A stretch of 64,000 nucleotides of DNA from Syntrophus gentianae (GTDB lineage: Bacteria > Desulfobacterota > Syntrophia > Syntrophales > Syntrophaceae). The translations under genes were made by a program, and so were the position numbers. The stretch spans positions 1 through 64,000 of the forward strand of contig NZ_FOBS01000015.1 in the NCBI RefSeq assembly GCF_900109885.1. Direction: 5' to 3'. Below are positions 35,711 to 64,000 of this stretch, in pieces. The stretch's first letter is position 1, and every line of letters starts with the position of its first letter. A model generated the notes under the pieces. The model searched no databases, was not told where the DNA came from, and saw nothing but the letters and a program-made list of their open reading frames with translations.

Positions 35711-36370
35711 TTATTTTTTTATTCCGACGATAATCCGGGAAACCAGGCAAATCAAGAGAACGGACAGCATCAGACTGAAGAAGAGGACCATGCTCTGTCC
35801 CATGTTCAGGAAGTGACAGGAGGGGATCAGATACCAGCCGTCACTGTAGAGGTCTGTAAGATATTTCTGCAGCGGACTTAAAACAGCGCCCGCAGGAACA
35901 ATCGGATAGTCGATTCCGCAGTCTCCCGTGGGAAGAAAGACGTTGGGGAACCATTCATGGAGAGGCAGGTGAAAGGGGAAGGCCGGTGTGGTGCTGCAGC
36001 CTTCAACACCGAAAGGGTCGTCGCTGGAATAGGCCCTGCCGATCCGGATCAGCGTCAGGGAGTACGCGATCCCCTTTGCCGCGCCGTAGACAGCCACCCC
36101 ATAGGCGACAAGCTTCAGGGCGAGAGTCTTTGGATGAACTGTGCCGAAAAGACCGCCGATCACGAGACAGGCCATGGCAAAACGGATGTAGACGCACAAT
36201 TCGCAGGGCCTCATGAAGAGCCACTTCTGAAAGATCGAATAAGCCGCCAGCTCAAGCCCGAGGCCGATCACCGCCAGTAAAATCCACGGGACCCGGCTGT
36301 CCTGGAAGGCCGCAATTTTCTCGATCCATTTCATCATGCCTTCTTGCTCCCCAGAGGCCTGTTTTTTCAT
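35711..36370 (-). CDS. DsbB/DsbI-type disulfide-generating membrane protein
   Basis: A 219-residue inner-membrane protein with four main hydrophobic helices plus a C-terminal one. The first periplasmic pair is in RPCELCVYIR (CxxC) after helix 1, and the second pair is formed by Cys in GVEGCSTTP and GDCGIDYP in the large loop, as in DsbB. It passes electrons from a DsbA-like partner to quinone or, in an anaerobe, to another acceptor such as menaquinone. Compared with DsbB the loop between the two last cysteines and helix 4 is longer, as in the DsbI branch. It lies 5 bases after the DsbA-like gene. Confidence 0.87.
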   Translation of the reverse strand: MKKQASGEQEGMMKWIEKIAAFQDSRVPWILLAVIGLGLELAAYSIFQKWLFMRPCELCVYIRFAMACLVIGGLFGTVHPKTLALKLVAYGVAVYGAAKGIAYSLTLIRIGRAYSSDDPFGVEGCSTTPAFPFHLPLHEWFPNVFLPTGDCGIDYPIVPAGAVLSPLQKYLTDLYSDGWYLIPSCHFLNMGQSMVLFFSLMLSVLLICLVSRIIVGIKK

Positions 36371-36375
36371 AACGG

Positions 36376-37044
36376 CTACTTTGCCATAAGCTCCTTGATT
36401 TTGGCGACCATATCCTCCAGAGATCGAAGGTTTTTCGTAAAGAGCAGATATTTTCCCTTCACGACAAAGGCAGGGATGCCCCGGACCTTGGCAATTTCAT
36501 AGGCGCCGTCCCAATCCTTCAGCCGCGCCTGAGTGGCGGGCTCTTTCAGGAGCCTTTGAAATTCCGCGCTGGAAATCCCGGCAGCATCCAGGCCTGTCTG
36601 CAGAAAGGCATCCGGCCCCTTGTCCCATCTTTCGCGGGCGTCATGATAGGCTTTGTAGTAAGCCAATTTGGCTTTTTTAAAGGAAGCCCTCTCGTCGAAA
36701 AGATTCAACCCGGCCTTCGAGTCTTTCGAAATCAGCGCTGCGAAAAGCTCGCTTGCCTGGACGCCGTATCGGCCCCTGGTTTTAAGATGCCAAGGGGATA
36801 ATCGGATGCCGTCTCCAGCCAGAATCTTATCCAATTTGGGGGTCACGGTCTTGTCGTACTTGTAGCAGAAGATGCAGTCGTAACTGAAAACTTCCATCAC
36901 GGTATTGCCCATGTTGGGAATGGGCTTTGCCAAGGTCACATAGTAAATATTCTCTTGAACGGCCGCGTGCAGGACCGGGGAAAAAAAGGAAAAAGCAAGA
37001 ACAAGAGACAATGCCAGGAATAACGCCACAGATCCCTTTCTCAT
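36376..37044 (-). CDS. DsbA/DsbL-type thiol:disulfide oxidoreductase
   Basis: A 222-residue exported thioredoxin-fold protein. A signal peptide (VALFLALSLVLAFSFFSPVL, cleavage near LHAA) precedes the fold. The active site is FSYDCIFCYKYDK with CIFC, and the cis-proline loop is VRGIPAFVVKG. An all-helical insertion separates the two halves, as in DsbA. It introduces disulfides into periplasmic proteins and is re-oxidised by the adjacent DsbB-like protein. The next gene upstream is era, 48 bases away, so this pair may start its own transcript. Confidence 0.9.
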   Translation of the reverse strand: MRKGSVALFLALSLVLAFSFFSPVLHAAVQENIYYVTLAKPIPNMGNTVMEVFSYDCIFCYKYDKTVTPKLDKILAGDGIRLSPWHLKTRGRYGVQASELFAALISKDSKAGLNLFDERASFKKAKLAYYKAYHDARERWDKGPDAFLQTGLDAAGISSAEFQRLLKEPATQARLKDWDGAYEIAKVRGIPAFVVKGKYLLFTKNLRSLEDMVAKIKELMAK

Positions 37045-46590: not shown

Positions 46591-46725
46591 AGGATGATCC
46601 TTCTTCAAAAAATTGACCGTTACGCTACCTGAGATTGCGGATATTATCAAGTTGATTTGGGGAAGACCTTAAACAACGCCTTGACAGCAAAAAGAGAATA
46701 TGCTTTTCTGCCCTTACCATAGCGC

Positions 46726-46820
46726 ATAAGGGGAGGTCGTTATTTCGGCCTGAGAGTTCCGCAAGTTCGAGCGGATGACCCTCACAACCTGATCCGGGTA
46801 ATGCCGGCGGAGGGAGTGCA
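46726..46820 (+). promoter_or_regulatory. TPP riboswitch (THI element)
   Basis: The conserved thi-box blocks are all present and in order: GGGGAGG, CGGCCTGAGAG, ACAACCTGATCCGGGTAATG and CCGGCGGAGGGAG. It lies directly upstream of the thiamine operon and binds thiamine pyrophosphate. A strong terminator follows 10 bases later, so control is by premature transcription termination when TPP is abundant. Confidence 0.96.
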
Positions 46821-46829
46821 AGAGACATC

Positions 46830-46869
46830 AAAGCCCTTATGCCCGGAAATTCAGGCATAAGGGCTTTTT
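46830..46869 (+). terminator. Riboswitch-controlled intrinsic terminator
   Basis: AAAGCCCTTATGCC at 46830-46843 pairs perfectly with 46854-46867 and is followed by a TTTTTA run. It stands between the TPP aptamer and thiE, 14 bases before the thiE start, as expected for the OFF state of a transcriptional TPP switch. Confidence 0.93.
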
Positions 46870-56847: not shown

Positions 56848-59800
56848 TTGCGAAAGATTTCCCGGTTTCTGAAACGATACCCCGTCCGCTGGCCGCTGCT
56901 GTTTCTGGTGGTTGCCCTTCTCCTGGGCGTTCTTGTCTATGAAACCTTCTTCCTGAAGGTAGAAACGGACATTCTGAAATCGCTTCCCACCCACGACCCC
57001 GTTCTTGCGGATGCCCGGGCGGTGATCCGCCATCTGCCCTTTCAGGATCGCGTGGTGATCGACGTCACCTCTTCCGGGGAGAATCGCGAAGTTCTCGTTG
57101 AAGGCGCAGCCTTTATAGAAAAACGGCTCAAGGAAAGCGGTCTCTTCAAGGAGGTGGGGCTGGGGCCGATGTCGTCCCTGTTCCCCGAACTCTCCGGTTA
57201 TGTGGTGGATTCCCTTCCCGTCCTATTTGACCAAGAGACCCTGCGGAAAGAGGTCCTGCCCCTGTTGGAACCAGGCCGGATTCGGGAAACCCTGACGGAA
57301 AGCATGGAACGGCTTCAAGGGCTGGAGGGAATCGGACAGGCCGTGCTGATCGCCCGGGATCCCCTGGGCCTCCGGAATCTCATCCTGGCGAAACTGGCCC
57401 ATCTCGCCCCATCGACAAAGGCGGACCTCTATCATGGCCAGTTGATCGCCCCCGATGGGCGGCATGTGCTCCTGCTCGCCCAACTGGCCGGGTCGGCAAC
57501 CTCTACGGAGTTCACCCGCGCCATCCCGCCTCTTCTGGAGCGAATTCAGGGGGATCTCAATGCCCGCTTTGCCTCCTCGGGAACGGCCTTTACCCTGACG
57601 CCGGTCGGGGCATATCGCGCCGCCCTGGATAACGAATCCATCGCCAAAGGGGATACCCGGAAAGCCATCTGGCTCACGGTTTTCGGGATATCCCTGCTGC
57701 TTGTTCTGTCGTTTCCCCGACCATTGATCGGTCTTCTGGCCCTGGTGCCTTCAACGGTTGGGGCAGTTGGATCCCTGCTGGTCTGTTCCTTTTTCTTCGA
57801 TTCCCTGTCCCTGTTGGCGGTCGGGTTCGGGGGGGCCATCCTGGCTTTCACCGTCGATCTGGGGATCGCCTATCTCCTTTTTCTCGACCGTCCCTGTGAG
57901 ACTTACGGGAAAAGAGCCGCCCGGGAAGTCCGATCGGCGGAGATCCTGGCCGTGCTGACGACGGTCGGCGGATTTCTGCTCCTACTGCTCAGTGACTTTC
58001 AGATTCTGGCCCAGATTGGTCTCTTCTCCGCAGTGGGGGTGTTTATCGCCCTGCTGTTCGTTGCCTTCATTTTCCCCCGTCTTTTTCCCGTCATGCCGCC
58101 GGCTGGCAGGGGAGGTCACCCGGGACTGATCCGGGCAGTGGATGGGGCGGCCCTTTCCGGCGGCATGTGGAAGGCAGGCCTGGCCCTGATCTTTGCCGGG
58201 GCGATGGCTTTTCTGGCCCGGCCGGAATACCGGATCGATCTGCAGGCCATGAATTCCATGACCTCGGAAACCCATAAGGCGGAAAAGGCCGTCCAGGCGA
58301 CCTGGGGCGACATGTCCCGGAAGGTCTATCTCCTCCTGGAAGGGAAAACCGGGGAAGATCTCCAGAAACAAAGCGACCGTCTGTCCGATGTGCTGGCGGA
58401 AGAGGTGAGGGCGGGACGCCTGTCTTCCGCATTTCTGCCGTCGACCCTCTTCCCCGGGGAGATCTTGAGAAGCCGGAACCTTGAAGCCTGGCGGACTTTC
58501 TGGAGCCGGGAGCGCGTTGACGCCCTTCGTGCCGAACTGGGCCGGGCAGGGCAGGAACTGGGCTTTGCCTCCGATGCCTTCGCGCCCTTTCTGAAGCGGC
58601 TGAACGAAGCGCCCGCCGGACCGGGACCGATTCCGGACAAATATTACCCTCTCCTGGGGTTCGTCCCGGTTTCGGAAAATGGAAGTCGGTGGGTGCAGGT
58701 TTCCCCGGCGACACCGGGCCCCGGCTATGATGCAGCGTTCTTGGCAGAACAGTGCCGGAAAGCGGCAAATGTCCGGATCTTCGATGCGGGCCTTTTCAAT
58801 GACCGGCTGGGTGCGATTTTGGCCTCGCTCTTTCAGGAAATCGCCTGGATTGCCGGCATCGGCATCGTCCTCGTCGTTTTCTTCTTCTTTCTGGACTGGC
58901 GGCTTTCGCTGATGGTCCTCGCGCCGGTGGCCTTTGCCCTGGTCAGCACACTGGGAACGCTGAAGCTGATCGGTCATCCCCTGGACATCCCCGGGATCAT
59001 GCTGTGGGTCGTCATCCTGGGGATGGGGATTGATTACGGCATTTATTATGTCTGCTCCTATCAGCGTTACCGCGATGAACGCCATCCCTTCATGAGCCTC
59101 ATCCGCCTGGCGATTTTCCTCTCCGCGGCGACGACCCTGGTGGGGTTCGGGGTCCTGGCCCTGGCCGATCATGTCGTTCTCAAAAGCATCGGGCTGGTTT
59201 CCCTTCTGGGGATCGGCTATTCCCTGATCGGCACCTTTACGATCCTGCCTCCCCTGACCCGGCGGTTCATCGTTCCGCCCCGCCGTGATCGGGAAACCGT
59301 GGCGGCGGGATCGCGGCGTCACCTGCAGCGGACCGTCCGGCGATATCGCTTTCTGGAGACCTATGCCCGCATGTTCGCCCGGTTCAAGATCCTCTGCGAT
59401 CCCATGTTCCCCCGGCTGGCCGGTCTGGTCTCCTCCCCGGAGCGGATTGTGGATATCGGAACGGGTTACGGCGTCCCCGCAGCCTGGCTGCTGGAGCTCT
59501 ATCCCGAGGCGAGGGTCTACGGCCTCGACCCGGATGAAGAGCGGGTACGCGTCGCTTCCTGGGCCATCGGCGACCGGGGGACTGCGGAAACCGGCCGCGC
59601 CCCGGATCTTCCCCATCTTCCGGAACCGCCGGATACGGCGCTGATGCTGGACATGATCCACCTCCTTTCCGATGGGGATCTCAAGCTCACCCTCCAGCGG
59701 CTCTTTGCGTCCCTCAAGCCTGGTGGACGGCTGATTGTCCGCGTGACGGTCCCCTCGGAAAAGGCCCCGCCCTGGGAAAGGATGATCGAAGACCGCATCC

Positions 59801-59952
59801 GCCTGCGCTTTCAAGGCCTCAAACCCTGGTATCGATCTATTGAAGAGATGAGAAGGCATCTGGCGGAGGCCGGCTTTGCCGTCCTGCTTCAGGAACCCAC
59901 GGCGCCGGGGCGGGAGGGGATCTGGTTTGTCGCCGAAAAGGAATCCGGATGA
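56848..59952 (+). CDS. MMPL/RND-type exporter fused to a C-terminal SAM methyltransferase
   Basis: A 1034-residue fusion. Residues 1 to about 815 are an RND exporter of the MMPL type in two halves. Each half has a long periplasmic domain after the first helix, and then clusters of about five helices; GGAILAFTVDLGIAYLLFLD and GMGIDYGIYYVCSYQRYRDE are the paired conserved transmembrane motifs. Residues from about 845 form a class I methyltransferase: motif I RIVDIGTGYGVPAAWLLELY, then YGLDPDEERV and LKPGGRLIVRVT. MMPL exporters of this kind move lipids or polyene-like products. The fused methyltransferase suggests modification of the cargo during export. Start is TTG at 56848. It overlaps the acyltransferase gene by 4 bases. 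Confidence 0.88.
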   Translation: MRKISRFLKRYPVRWPLLFLVVALLLGVLVYETFFLKVETDILKSLPTHDPVLADARAVIRHLPFQDRVVIDVTSSGENREVLVEGAAFIEKRLKESGLFKEVGLGPMSSLFPELSGYVVDSLPVLFDQETLRKEVLPLLEPGRIRETLTESMERLQGLEGIGQAVLIARDPLGLRNLILAKLAHLAPSTKADLYHGQLIAPDGRHVLLLAQLAGSATSTEFTRAIPPLLERIQGDLNARFASSGTAFTLTPVGAYRAALDNESIAKGDTRKAIWLTVFGISLLLVLSFPRPLIGLLALVPSTVGAVGSLLVCSFFFDSLSLLAVGFGGAILAFTVDLGIAYLLFLDRPCETYGKRAAREVRSAEILAVLTTVGGFLLLLLSDFQILAQIGLFSAVGVFIALLFVAFIFPRLFPVMPPAGRGGHPGLIRAVDGAALSGGMWKAGLALIFAGAMAFLARPEYRIDLQAMNSMTSETHKAEKAVQATWGDMSRKVYLLLEGKTGEDLQKQSDRLSDVLAEEVRAGRLSSAFLPSTLFPGEILRSRNLEAWRTFWSRERVDALRAELGRAGQELGFASDAFAPFLKRLNEAPAGPGPIPDKYYPLLGFVPVSENGSRWVQVSPATPGPGYDAAFLAEQCRKAANVRIFDAGLFNDRLGAILASLFQEIAWIAGIGIVLVVFFFFLDWRLSLMVLAPVAFALVSTLGTLKLIGHPLDIPGIMLWVVILGMGIDYGIYYVCSYQRYRDERHPFMSLIRLAIFLSAATTLVGFGVLALADHVVLKSIGLVSLLGIGYSLIGTFTILPPLTRRFIVPPRRDRETVAAGSRRHLQRTVRRYRFLETYARMFARFKILCDPMFPRLAGLVSSPERIVDIGTGYGVPAAWLLELYPEARVYGLDPDEERVRVASWAIGDRGTAETGRAPDLPHLPEPPDTALMLDMIHLLSDGDLKLTLQRLFASLKPGGRLIVRVTVPSEKAPPWERMIEDRIRLRFQGLKPWYRSIEEMRRHLAEAGFAVLLQEPTAPGREGIWFVAEKESG

Positions 59953-60836
59953 AGACACTCTTCTATCGCATGCTGATTTTCCTGTCCCGAGGCATGGGAC
60001 TGTGGTTCTTCCGCTTCTTCTCCTGGTGGGTCGCCACGGGATTCTTCCTCTTCTCGCCCGGCCGGGTGGCGGTCAGTGTCCGCTTCTACCGCGCCCTCTG
60101 TCCTGACCGGGGGAAATTTTCCGCGTTGAAACAGGCCTGGCGGCAATATCATTCCTTTACCTCGGTCTTCCTCGACCGGATTCTTCTAATGGAGGAAGGG
60201 CGGCTGACCCATACCAGCGAAGGCCTGGAGTTCCTGAACGAAGCGATGGAGAGAAAGACCGGGGGGATTCTCCTCATGTCCCATTTCGGGAACTGGGAAG
60301 TGGCCGCCCGCCTGCTGCACCGCAAGGGAATGAGACTGCTTCTCTATCTGGGGAAAAAGCACAAGGAGCAGATTGAGTCCGCTCAGAAGAAAAGCCTTGA
60401 AGAGCAGGGAGTCCGGGTCGTTGCGGTGGATGAGGAGGGCGGCTCCCCTCTGGATATCGTGGAAGGAATCAGATTTTTGAAAGAGGGAGGGCTGGTGTCG
60501 CTGACGGGAGACCGCCTCTGGGGGAGGGAGCAGAGGACCGTATCCGTATCCTTTCTAGGACATGAGGCTGTACTTCCCGAAGCGCCCTATCTGCTGGCGC
60601 TGCTGTCCGGCGCACCCCTGTTCATCTTTCTGGCTTTCCGAATCGGGGAAGGGCGATATGCCTTTTTCCTTTCCCCTCCGATTTACGTGAAAGCAACAAG
60701 CCGCCGGGAGCGGGAGCCGGCGATCCGTGAAGCGGCGCAAGCCTACGCCCGGCTGCTGGAAGCGGCCGTCCGGCGGCATCCACAGGAATGGTATCACTTT
60801 GAACCTTTCCTGGGAACGAGACTCAGTGACGGGTAG
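59949..60836 (+). CDS. LpxL/HtrB-like lysophospholipid acyltransferase
   Basis: A 295-residue membrane-associated acyltransferase. The family motif H-x4-D/E is in LMSHFGNWEVAARLL near residues 100-114, and a second block is GGLVSLTGDRLWGREQRTVS. It resembles late acyltransferases of lipid A synthesis and LPLAT proteins of aryl-polyene-type clusters. A hydrophobic N-terminal anchor (GMGLWFFRFFSWWVATGFFL) holds it at the inner membrane. The overlap with the MMPL-methyltransferase gene (ATGA) implies that it makes the lipid or acylated product moved by the exporter, which is inference. Confidence 0.85.
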   Translation: MKTLFYRMLIFLSRGMGLWFFRFFSWWVATGFFLFSPGRVAVSVRFYRALCPDRGKFSALKQAWRQYHSFTSVFLDRILLMEEGRLTHTSEGLEFLNEAMERKTGGILLMSHFGNWEVAARLLHRKGMRLLLYLGKKHKEQIESAQKKSLEEQGVRVVAVDEEGGSPLDIVEGIRFLKEGGLVSLTGDRLWGREQRTVSVSFLGHEAVLPEAPYLLALLSGAPLFIFLAFRIGEGRYAFFLSPPIYVKATSRREREPAIREAAQAYARLLEAAVRRHPQEWYHFEPFLGTRLSDG

Positions 60837-60964: not shown

Positions 60965-61666
60965 TTATTTGTAGTTCCGTTCTCCGAAGATCCCCCGGCC
61001 GATGCGGACGATTGTGGACCCCTCTTCAATGGCGACTTCATAATCATCCGTCATGCCCATGGAAAGCTCCTTCATGGCAACCCGGTCGATCCCTTCTGCT
61101 GCAATCCGATCCCGCAAGGTCCGCAGGGCAGCGAAGAAGGGCCGGGCGTCTTCGGGATTGTCGAACCAGGGCGGCATGGTCATCAAACCCATAATGGCGA
61201 GATTTTCCAGAGGGGTGATTTTGCGGATCAGGTCGATCGTCTCCTCGGGGGGAACGCCGCTTTTCGTCAGTTCTCCGCCGCTGTTGACTTCGATCAGGAT
61301 CGGCAGCACACGGCCGGCCGCCTTGGCGCGGCGGTCCAGTTCCACCGCCAGTTCGAGACGGTCCACGGATTCGACCATGTCGAAGAGTCGAATGGCGTAT
61401 TTGGCCTTGTTGGTCTGGAGATGGCCGATCATGTGCCACTGCGGCGGATGGCCGATGGATTCGACCTTGAGCCTGCTCTCCTGGATGTAGTTTTCTCCGC
61501 AGAGGTCAATCCCGGCTTCAAGGGCCTGCCGGATGCGGCCTTCCTCCACCGTTTTGGTGACGGCCATCAGGCGGATTTCCGAAAGCGGACGGCCGGAGCG
61601 GGCCGCCGCCGCGGCGATGCGCTCTCGGATGGACTGGATCTTGCTCTTTATCTCTTCATCGGCCAT
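60965..61666 (-). CDS. YggS/PROSC-family PLP homeostasis protein
   Basis: A 233-residue TIM-barrel PLP-binding protein of the YggS family, which buffers pyridoxal phosphate and affects amino-acid pools rather than catalysing a known reaction. PLP lysine is in IRLMAVTKTVE near residue 36, and the phosphate site is in STIVRIGRGIFGER at the C-terminus. HMIGHLQTNKAKY and MGLMTMPP are also diagnostic. The start at 61666 has AGGAG 7 bases upstream and overlaps maf by 11 bases. Confidence 0.94.
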   Translation of the reverse strand: MADEEIKSKIQSIRERIAAAAARSGRPLSEIRLMAVTKTVEEGRIRQALEAGIDLCGENYIQESRLKVESIGHPPQWHMIGHLQTNKAKYAIRLFDMVESVDRLELAVELDRRAKAAGRVLPILIEVNSGGELTKSGVPPEETIDLIRKITPLENLAIMGLMTMPPWFDNPEDARPFFAALRTLRDRIAAEGIDRVAMKELSMGMTDDYEVAIEEGSTIVRIGRGIFGERNYK

Positions 61667-62267
61667 GAGAATCTCCTGAAAAGGTGAGGGTTCCAAGGTC
61701 CTTCAAGGTCTCCACGACTTCACTGAGGGGCAGGCCCATGACATTGGTGTAAGAGCCCCGGATCTCCCGGATGAAAAAGGCCCCCATGCCCTGAACGGCA
61801 TAGCCGCCGGCCTTGTCATAGGGCTCCTCGGAGCTGACATACCATAAAATTTCATCTTCGGGAATTTCCTTGAAGAGGACGGAGGCTTGCACGACCTGGG
61901 AAATCCGCAGGTCCCTTTGCTTTGAAACCAGCGAAAAGCCGGTGTAAACGGTGTGCTCCCGGCCGCTCAACGTTTCCAGCATTTCCCGCGCTTCTTCCTG
62001 CGTTTTCGGCTTGCCCAGCACCCGGCCGTCAATCACCACGACGGTATCCGCCCCGAGCACCAGGGCCTCGGGGAAGAGATCGGCGATGCAATCGGCCTTT
62101 TCCCGGGAGAGGCGCAGAACGTGATCCGGCGGGGCTTCCCCTTCTATCTGGGTTTCATCCATATGGCTGGGAACGACTTCAAAGGCAAGACCCAGGAGTC
62201 GGAGGAGTTCGGCCCGCCGCGGCGATGCGGAGGCCAGGATCAGTTTTTGCGTCAGGCGAATACACAT
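61656..62267 (-). CDS. maf: Maf-family nucleoside-triphosphate pyrophosphatase
   Basis: A 203-residue cytosolic house-cleaning enzyme that hydrolyses non-canonical or modified NTPs to NMPs. Conserved blocks: LILASASPRRAELLRLLG near residues 9-26, LGADTVVVIDGRVLGKPKT, HTVYTGF and the C-terminal YDKAGGYAVQGMGAFFI. The ATG at 62267 gives the usual start MCIRLTQKLILASASPRR; the open frame extends further upstream without a conserved sequence. No clear ribosome site is visible. Confidence 0.94.
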   Translation of the reverse strand: MCIRLTQKLILASASPRRAELLRLLGLAFEVVPSHMDETQIEGEAPPDHVLRLSREKADCIADLFPEALVLGADTVVVIDGRVLGKPKTQEEAREMLETLSGREHTVYTGFSLVSKQRDLRISQVVQASVLFKEIPEDEILWYVSSEEPYDKAGGYAVQGMGAFFIREIRGSYTNVMGLPLSEVVETLKDLGTLTFSGDSHGR

Positions 62268-62411
62268 GAAAAAAGCGGCTTCCTTTCCAAGTTCGATCTG
62301 GAAGCTTATAAGAAATCGGAGAGGGGATGTCAAGCCGGCCGCTGGAAGATTCCGGAAATCTTTGCTAGGCTGGCGCAATAAATCGGCAACTGAATCCAGG
62401 AAAGGTGAAGA

Positions 62412-62735
62412 ATGAAGAAAAATTTGACATTACGGCGTATTTTGTTGCTCGCAACCGGGCTGATTTCAGCCGGGCTGGTTTTGACCGCCCCGCTTCCGGC
62501 GAATGCCGATTACCGGGTTGTCCGGTTGAACATCCCCGGCTGCATGTCCTGAGGCGGCTACAAGAGGGTAGGTTCTATCCTCAGGTCCGTCAAGGGGGTC
62601 ACTTCCGTGGAACGGTATGGCGATCAGGAAGTGACCGTGGCTTATGACGATGACAGGGCCAGTCTGCAGCAAATGATGGAACTCCTGAAACAGGGGAAAT
62701 ATCCCGTCAGCGGCAAGCCGGTTATTGTTGAATAA
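62412..62735 (+). CDS. Exported HMA-domain selenoprotein (CXXU metal-binding motif)
   Basis: Read through TGA at 62550-62552, the frame gives 107 residues ending at TAA 62733-62735. Residues 1-32 are a signal peptide (LLLATGLISAGLVLTAPLPA, cleavage after ANA). The rest is one heavy-metal-associated domain with the MerP/CopZ order of strands: YRVVRLNIPGCMS-U-GGYKR, then SILRSVKGVTSVERYGDQEV. The second cysteine of the usual CXXC metal motif is Sec (C44, U47). A ribosome site AAAGGTGA lies just before the ATG. After the TGA, 39 bases fold as a classical bacterial SECIS. Both sides of the TGA keep domain-level homology, which excludes chance. Ordinary gene calling misses this gene because the pieces are short. 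Confidence 0.9.
62553..62591 (+). promoter_or_regulatory. Bacterial SECIS element of the HMA selenoprotein gene
   Basis: Immediately after the UGA, GGCGG (62553-62557) pairs with CCGTC (62587-62591), and GAGGGTA (62564-62570) pairs with TATCCTC (62576-62582). The apical loop is GGTTC, beginning 19 bases after the UGA. Size, two-stem shape and a GGU-containing loop closely match the fdhF SECIS of E. coli that SelB binds. Confidence 0.88.
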
Positions 62736-62757: not shown

Positions 62758-63831
62758 CTATTCCAGATAAGACTTCATCTTCCTTTCCTCCAGGATATCC
62801 ACGACTTCTTTGACTTTCTGAGATTCTCCCCTGCGGCAGATCAAGAGGGCGTCCTCCGTTTCCACGACGATCAGGTCCTGGACGCCCACCAGGGCGACCA
62901 GTTTCCCGGGGCTGTAGACGAGGGAATCGCCTGTCTCCACGGCAATAACCTGCCCGCAGCAGGCGTTTCCCGAATCGTCTTTATCCGAGACTTCCCAGAG
63001 GGCGTCCCAACTGCCTACATCCGACCAGCCGAAATCGCCGGGAATCAGCAGGACCTTGTCCGCTTTCTCCATCACACCGTAATCGATGGAGATGGAAGGG
63101 GCTTCCCCGTAGATCTCTTTCAGAACGGTTTCATAGTGCTGCGTCCCCAGGACCCCTTCGATTTTAAGCAGTCCTCTGTGCAGATCCGGGAGGTGCGTCG
63201 CGATGGCCCGAAGAATGGTAGAGGCCTTCCAGACAAACATGCCGCTGTTCCAGTAAAAGTTTCCCTGCTCCAGGAACAGCCTGGCCTTTTCGAGAGGCGG
63301 TTTCTCCCGGATCGACCAGACATCATAGAGGAGTTTTCCCCCAATCGATTCGACCGGGTTTCCCCGTTCCAGGTAACCGTATCCGGTTTCCGGAACAGTC
63401 GGACGGATGCCGAGGGTTACCAGCGCGTCATGACGTTCAGCCGCTTCCGCGGCGGCCGCCAGGGTATCCAGGAACGCATTGCCGTCGGATATCAGGTGAT
63501 CGGACGGCAGAACCGCCATGACGGCGTCTCCGACACGCCGGCGGATGTGGATCGCGGCGAGGCCGATGCAGGGGGCGGTATTGCGGCCGACGGGTTCCAC
63601 AAGAATGTTGTCCGGGGGAATATCCGGAAGCTGTCTCCGCAATTCCTCCGCATGGTCAGCGCCCGTAATGATCAGGGTGCGATCCGGGGGAATCAGGGGA
63701 GCAATGCGCTTCACCGTTTCCTGGATGATCGTCTGCTTCCCAGTTATATCCAAAAGATGCTTCGGCTTGTGTCTGCGGCTTCGCGGCCAGAACCTCGACC
63801 CTTTGCCTCCAGCCATGATGACGGCGTACAT
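62758..63831 (-). CDS. Mannose-1-phosphate guanylyltransferase (single-domain)
   Basis: A 357-residue nucleotidyltransferase making GDP-mannose. Signature GGKGSRFWPRSRRHKPKHLL near residues 9-28, VEPVGRNTAPCIGLAAI near 78-94, and WNSGMFVWKAS with DYGVMEKADKV near 255. Unlike the manC product at 13360-14808 it has no C-terminal isomerase domain. The start at 63831 has AAGGAG 8 bases upstream; the open frame to 63984 is not conserved-looking. It is convergent with the HMA selenoprotein gene (22-base gap). The last 169 bases of the window show no further gene. Confidence 0.93.
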   Translation of the reverse strand: MYAVIMAGGKGSRFWPRSRRHKPKHLLDITGKQTIIQETVKRIAPLIPPDRTLIITGADHAEELRRQLPDIPPDNILVEPVGRNTAPCIGLAAIHIRRRVGDAVMAVLPSDHLISDGNAFLDTLAAAAEAAERHDALVTLGIRPTVPETGYGYLERGNPVESIGGKLLYDVWSIREKPPLEKARLFLEQGNFYWNSGMFVWKASTILRAIATHLPDLHRGLLKIEGVLGTQHYETVLKEIYGEAPSISIDYGVMEKADKVLLIPGDFGWSDVGSWDALWEVSDKDDSGNACCGQVIAVETGDSLVYSPGKLVALVGVQDLIVVETEDALLICRRGESQKVKEVVDILEERKMKSYLE

Positions 63832-64000
63832 GAGGGTTTCTCCTTGAGATGAGACATTGATCTTAGGGATAAAGTATAGGAGATGATCCTCTCGTGTCAA
63901 TGGCATATTGATGACAAATCCCGGTATGGCCAACCGGAAAGAGAGGCATCGCCGCTGCTGCTTGATCGTTCGCAGACAATGCAATGCCGGAATTCGGAAT

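Follow-up and report, generated by a model that had tools for sequence, protein, structure and literature searches.

A gene at positions 62412 to 62735 on the forward strand of the window (the whole stretch of 64,000 nucleotides of Syntrophus gentianae DNA analysed here) has the look of a broken gene, but its in-frame UGA at codon 47 (UGA47) is almost certainly a selenocysteine (Sec) codon. Judging from the sequence and its relatives, we have very little doubt that the gene, a solitary one, truly encodes a selenoprotein. The best overall explanation, which we consider highly probable, is an exported protein of the HMA fold with a displaced Sec site that may capture soft metals. The gene adds to the syntrophic anaerobes a widespread and vertically kept selenoprotein subfamily that went unnamed in earlier Syntrophus lists. 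The HMA fold would here host Sec away from the known metal-binding CxxC, and Sec persists where the partner Cys has been lost. Because Sec would occupy a non-CxxC site and is kept without Cys, the benefit that selenium brings to a small fold of metal carriers becomes directly testable.

Gene structure and genomic context

The frame opens with the ATG at 62412, upstream of which lies a purine-rich ribosome site (AAGGTGA; Shine-Dalgarno-like run AGGAAAGGTGA, 62398 to 62408, forward strand), and it closes with a TAA stop. The standard code yields an ORF of only 46 amino acids from this start. When the TGA at 62550 to 62552 (forward strand) is read as Sec47, the product has 107 residues, beginning with MKKN, ending with PVIVE and carrying NIPGCMSUGGYKRVGSIL around the Sec; the Cys of the C-x-x-U motif is Cys44 (62541 to 62543, forward strand). 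Residues 1 to 32 (62412 to 62507, forward strand) resemble a signal peptide, with KK...RR, a hydrophobic core and P-A-N-A followed by D, and form a low-pLDDT tail in the structure model. The preliminary description had proposed an overlooked selenoprotein whose frame retains a signal-peptide-like N-terminus, an HMA fold and a ribosome site, and which normal annotation would miss. The single in-frame TGA, the hairpin described below, the homologues and the structure model all agree with this proposal, and the standard reading indeed ends at 46 residues.

The gene is flanked by a divergent neighbour (61656 to 62378, reverse strand), which we take from its sequence to be Maf-like, and a convergent one (62758 to 63984, reverse strand), presumably similar to mannose-1-phosphate guanylyltransferase. 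Synteny is conserved on both sides, and we assume no functional link with the Maf-like gene. Some 20 genomes keep the selenoprotein gene as a lone gene, with maf/yggS diverging on one side and mannose-1-phosphate guanylyltransferase converging on the other (all three being family names that we assigned by our own reading of the sequences). This conserved solitary placement points to vertical inheritance of a single-gene unit; among divergent members of the family, the flanking genes vary. No mer, cop or other metal gene adjoins the gene in the genomes compared, the neighbours appearing to be unrelated, and the neighbourhood comparison found no redox partner gene conserved beside it. A scan for promoters and terminators returned nothing clearly exceeding chance.

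Elsewhere, the window contains a TPP riboswitch (RF00059, 61.1 bits; 46719-46831) upstream of a thiamine-synthesis-like gene, and a 1034-aa ORF (56848-59952) that combines an MMPL/RND-type exporter-like region with a C-terminal methyltransferase-like domain and is followed by an acyltransferase-like gene (59949-60836). Adjacent DsbB-like and DsbA-like genes lie at 35711-37044, which makes it probable that this genome encodes a periplasmic disulfide system.

Recoding of the UGA codon and conservation of the family

The genome from which the window derives encodes tRNA-Sec (77.4 bits), selA, selB and selD, the last itself with one in-frame TGA; the preliminary description had named a lack of selB or selC as evidence against recoding, and the machinery is in place. 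Across the class, selA was found in 137 of 155 genomes, including 91 of the 92 high-quality ones, and the single high-quality genome without it (G028) also lacks the HMA selenoprotein gene.

A bacterial SECIS element is a stem-loop located just 3' of the UGA, with a G within the first two loop positions and the loop 16-37 nt away. Such a hairpin, AGGGUA-GGUUC-UAUCCU, occupies 62565 to 62581 (forward strand) after a 12-nt spacer; its GGUUC loop (62571-62575), closed by the AGGGUA/UAUCCU stem, lies 18 nt 3' of the UGA. The 6-5-6 hairpin recurs among homologues at a fixed spacer of 12 nt (15 nt in the CxU branch), with the loop 18 or 21 nt from the UGA, G in position 2 and a covarying stem, in agreement with this rule. 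The helix is perfect, with all six pairs formed, in 108 of 115 distinct Sec-type sequences, and G occupies the second loop position in all 114 scored loops; among in-phase control sites elsewhere in these genes, only 0.5% show a perfect helix. Among the 2,220 TGAs of the window, 5 have such a helix at the same spacing together with the loop G. In a 30-row alignment, the six-pair helix is 98.9% paired, compared with 27-55% for slid controls.

The pair next to the loop links the third positions of two codons and covaries (A-T in 87 sequences, G-C in 10, C-G in 15 and other combinations in 2; n=114), and the Arg codon of the 5' stem is AGG in 107 of 114 sequences, compared with 60 of 338 among other Arg codons of the same genes. 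The synonymous covariation and the AGG bias indicate, therefore, that constraint acts on the RNA and not on the protein alone. The preliminary description had drawn a two-stem SECIS with a GGUUC loop; the apical stem-loop stands, but the lower stem is disrupted in the majority of sequences, and the predicted SECIS is thus one conserved apical stem-loop. By comparison among homologues, UGA47 is retained as a codon with coding function, and this short apical hairpin 18 nt downstream serves its SelB-dependent recoding.

Homologues were found in 95 of 149 relatives (genome search; three congeneric genomes, the rest listed under the same order), and all but four of the matches listed contain exactly one in-frame TGA. 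Within the class, a profile search detected homologues in 107 of 155 genomes, and almost all of these homologues have exactly one in-frame TGA, at the shared site. Because of these counts, the observation lies far beyond chance. A contig scan with a single protein query retrieved 1 relative only, the remaining relatives coming from the genome searches. Among 395 genomes sampled across the phylum, TGA-containing relatives of the same kind also occur in 6 outside the class (G309, G437, G275, G302, G449 and G424). The homologue in a genome of the same genus (G003) is 61% identical to the window protein. Eight residues are invariant in 30 aligned members, namely the Cys, the Sec, R52, L57, D79, D80, L92 and P103. 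Past the SECIS, pN/pS comes to about 0.27 among the three sequences from Syntrophus; across 235 pairs, the downstream median is 0.26. In line with the expectation of the preliminary description, the site is thus occupied by Sec in homologues, or by Cys in a small number of nested paralogues, with the protein conserved beyond it and the hairpin kept.

Among the 115 Sec-type sequences, 94 have CxxU, 16 have CxU and 5 have Sec without Cys, so that Sec is the constant residue. Cys replaces Sec in four paralogues, L135 and L136 (CADC), L137 (CAC) and L195 (CDC). In the tree, which is based on 77 columns only and whose deep forks are weak, the CADC and CAC forms fall within Sec clades with high support: L135 and L136 group with Sec sequences of the same family (96/85), and L137 groups with CxU sequences (100/92). 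In family f6, four proteins (L123, L132, L133 and L139) are fusions of a CxU HMA selenoprotein with a C-terminal thioredoxin-like domain. In the one tested, L132, both domains exceed the Pfam cut-offs (Thioredoxin_9, 35.3 bits; HMA, 29.5 bits). The fused domains mostly lack a CxxC, reading WSPDS, WSPGS or WSKES, with one WCPDS. Three Sec-only HMA proteins, L126, L129 and L130, read PGVVUGST, with no Cys partner; a ChaN-type haem-uptake gene divergently adjoins the L126 and L129 genes (for the L126 copy, PF04187, 170 bits).

Position of the motif in the HMA fold and candidate roles

Residues 34-107 (62511 to 62732, forward strand) very probably adopt an HMA (MerP-like) fold. The structure model, made from a two-sequence alignment, is of the ferredoxin-like beta-alpha-beta-beta-alpha-beta type, with strands at residues 34-40, 63-69, 73-79 and 100-105 and helices at 45-58 and 85-94. 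Its pLDDT is about 92 over residues 50-100, and its Z scores to HMA structures are 10-11.8. HMA7 (3dxs, Z 11.8) and MerP (1osd, Z 11.7, 71 residues, 2.0 Å) are the best solved matches, in keeping with the HMA domain named in the preliminary description. Profile comparison also matches two MerP chains (E ~1.4e-7 and ~1.8e-7). Against the HMA model PF00403, the window protein scores 14.2 bits, compared with a gathering cut-off of 24.8; among its relatives, L132, L125 and L129 reach 29.5, 36.2 and 31.1 bits, respectively.

Register comparison shows that the window protein lacks the canonical metal motif, GMxCxxC. The chain from the 'PG' of beta-1 to the 'G-V' after alpha-1 has the same length as in canonical HMA domains, in which the Gly that follows alpha-1 is preceded by the first Cys at 16 residues and by the second at 13. 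For the Sec, the distance to the same Gly is 15 residues in most proteins with CxxU and 16 in most of those with CxU or with Sec alone, and Cys44 comes immediately after the Gly of the beta-1 'PG'. From the equal chain length and these distances, the ungapped register places the Cys at the Met of GMTCxxC and the Sec at or beside the position of the first Cys; HMMER and hhalign superpose the two motifs only via compensating two-residue gaps. In the ungapped register, the C-x-x-U of the predicted protein is two residues N-terminal of the canonical CxxC, so that Sec would lie away from the second metal Cys, and the earlier placement of Sec 'exactly' there fails in this register.

The protein would be exported to the periplasm. 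There, Sec, predicted at the N-terminus of helix alpha-1 and usually paired with a Cys three residues upstream, might form a selenolate/thiolate pair that captures Hg(II), Cu(I), Cd(II) or reactive metalloid species. The fold and the ligands suggest soft-metal capture as the main role, a suggestion that we regard as evenly balanced; counting against it are the lack of adjoining mer, cop or other metal genes, the missing GMxCxxC and the 5 of 115 Sec forms without a Cys partner.

It is possible, and we put this tentatively, that the protein is instead a selenol-thiol redox enzyme built on an HMA scaffold, with CxxU at the helix N-terminus as in thioredoxin-fold selenoproteins and metal binding incidental; in a variant of this reading, the single Sec would be a peroxidatic or reductase nucleophile in the periplasm. 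Such an enzyme would account for the greater constancy of Sec compared with Cys, the displacement of the motif from the metal-binding CxxC and the fusion of one branch to a Thioredoxin_9 domain, and known selenoproteins are mostly redox proteins (PMC13188914). However, the scarcity of CxxC in the fused domains, the fold, which is that of metal carriers, and the lack of a conserved adjoining redox partner gene argue against it. We consider it unlikely that the family represents a selenoenzyme type on the HMA fold, in which the displaced Sec site and the optional Cys would serve periplasmic redox or metalloid chemistry and not metal carriage; such a type would span the CxxU, CxU and Sec-only forms and, in one branch, include a thioredoxin-like partner domain.

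Two further alternatives concern the codon itself, and both are exceedingly improbable. An open frame under a changed code would not alone prove Sec, and UGA might be read as a standard amino acid via a suppressor or an altered code; but tRNA-Sec, SelA, SelB and SelD are present, selD carries one TGA, and the UGA is linked to a covarying SECIS hairpin. The 46-residue ORF of the standard code could suggest a pseudogene, or a true short peptide followed by a coincidental frame, a reading already refuted, on the sequences compared, by conservation of the downstream protein in more than 100 genomes (pN/pS ~0.26), covariation of the hairpin at synonymous sites and the open frame of the Cys forms.

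The mercury methylation gene hgcA exceeds the NCBIfam cut-off in 75 of the 155 class genomes, about half, including the genome of the window (G000:C28:37044-38036), so that a mercury link is worth testing, though hgcA and the selenoprotein gene are not tightly coupled. We rejected tight coupling with HgcA, given that genomes of family f6 have the selenoprotein gene without HgcA and that G001 and several genomes of family f17 show the reverse.

Comparison with known HMA proteins and selenoproteins

By sequence, MerP (TIGR02052; PDB 1osd and 1afi) is the best named match, at 29.9 bits compared with an equivalog cut-off of 92.55, and all 30 members match this model no better than E 1.2e-12. The two proteins have in common an exported HMA fold, a VPG ahead of the loop and a beta-3 segment of FDD type; the window protein differs in lacking GMTCxxC and mer neighbours and in carrying Sec. 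A 'Mercuric transport protein MerP' selenoprotein, with two sequences and the motif not stated, is listed in the GOS selenoproteome table (PMC2398784) and is alike in being a MerP-type selenoprotein by name, the comparison being with the table description only. The 19 selenoproteins listed for Syntrophus aciditrophicus in 2006 (PMC1794560) include no HMA or MerP-like protein, although the genome of the same genus mentioned above (G003) carries the gene.

Selenoproteins of the HMA fold that carry UxxU at the canonical site have been described before (NF041115, UxxU_metal_bind, 'putative mercuric reductase'; PMC13188914). Like them, the window protein is a small HMA protein that looks exported and places Sec in the loop preceding helix alpha-1; an NF041115-like example in the phylum, L102 of genome G180, reads '...IEGMIUPAUPVVVKRAL...'. 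On the same contig (G180:C122), this UxxU HMA protein (GMIUPAU) is followed shortly downstream, at position ~1850, by another UGA-rich HMA-like frame, 'KRGGFVUMGUPDAIV'. NF041115 proteins have two Sec at the canonical CxxC positions, whereas the window protein has one Sec in a motif displaced by two residues. It scores 20.5 bits against the NF041115 model, compared with a cut-off of 95, and the five members above the cut-off in the phylum sample carry Cys. A branch with 100/99 support in the tree sets the canonical HMA rows apart from the CxxU/CxU family.

The preliminary description had left it unsettled whether an HMA/MerP-type selenoprotein was known; the UxxU type is, and the CxxU/CxU type has no entry in the 2026 review table of 119 selenoprotein families (PMC13188914) or in NCBIfam, where the window protein stays below the cut-off of every model. 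Literature searches found no HMA CxxU selenoprotein, and some member may have an earlier mention, in the 2007 work on the Olavius symbionts. The review treats another Sec position or motif as defining a distinct subfamily (PMC13188914); by this rule, and given the displaced CxxU/CxU motif, the family described here would therefore be a subfamily distinct from the UxxU HMA selenoproteins.
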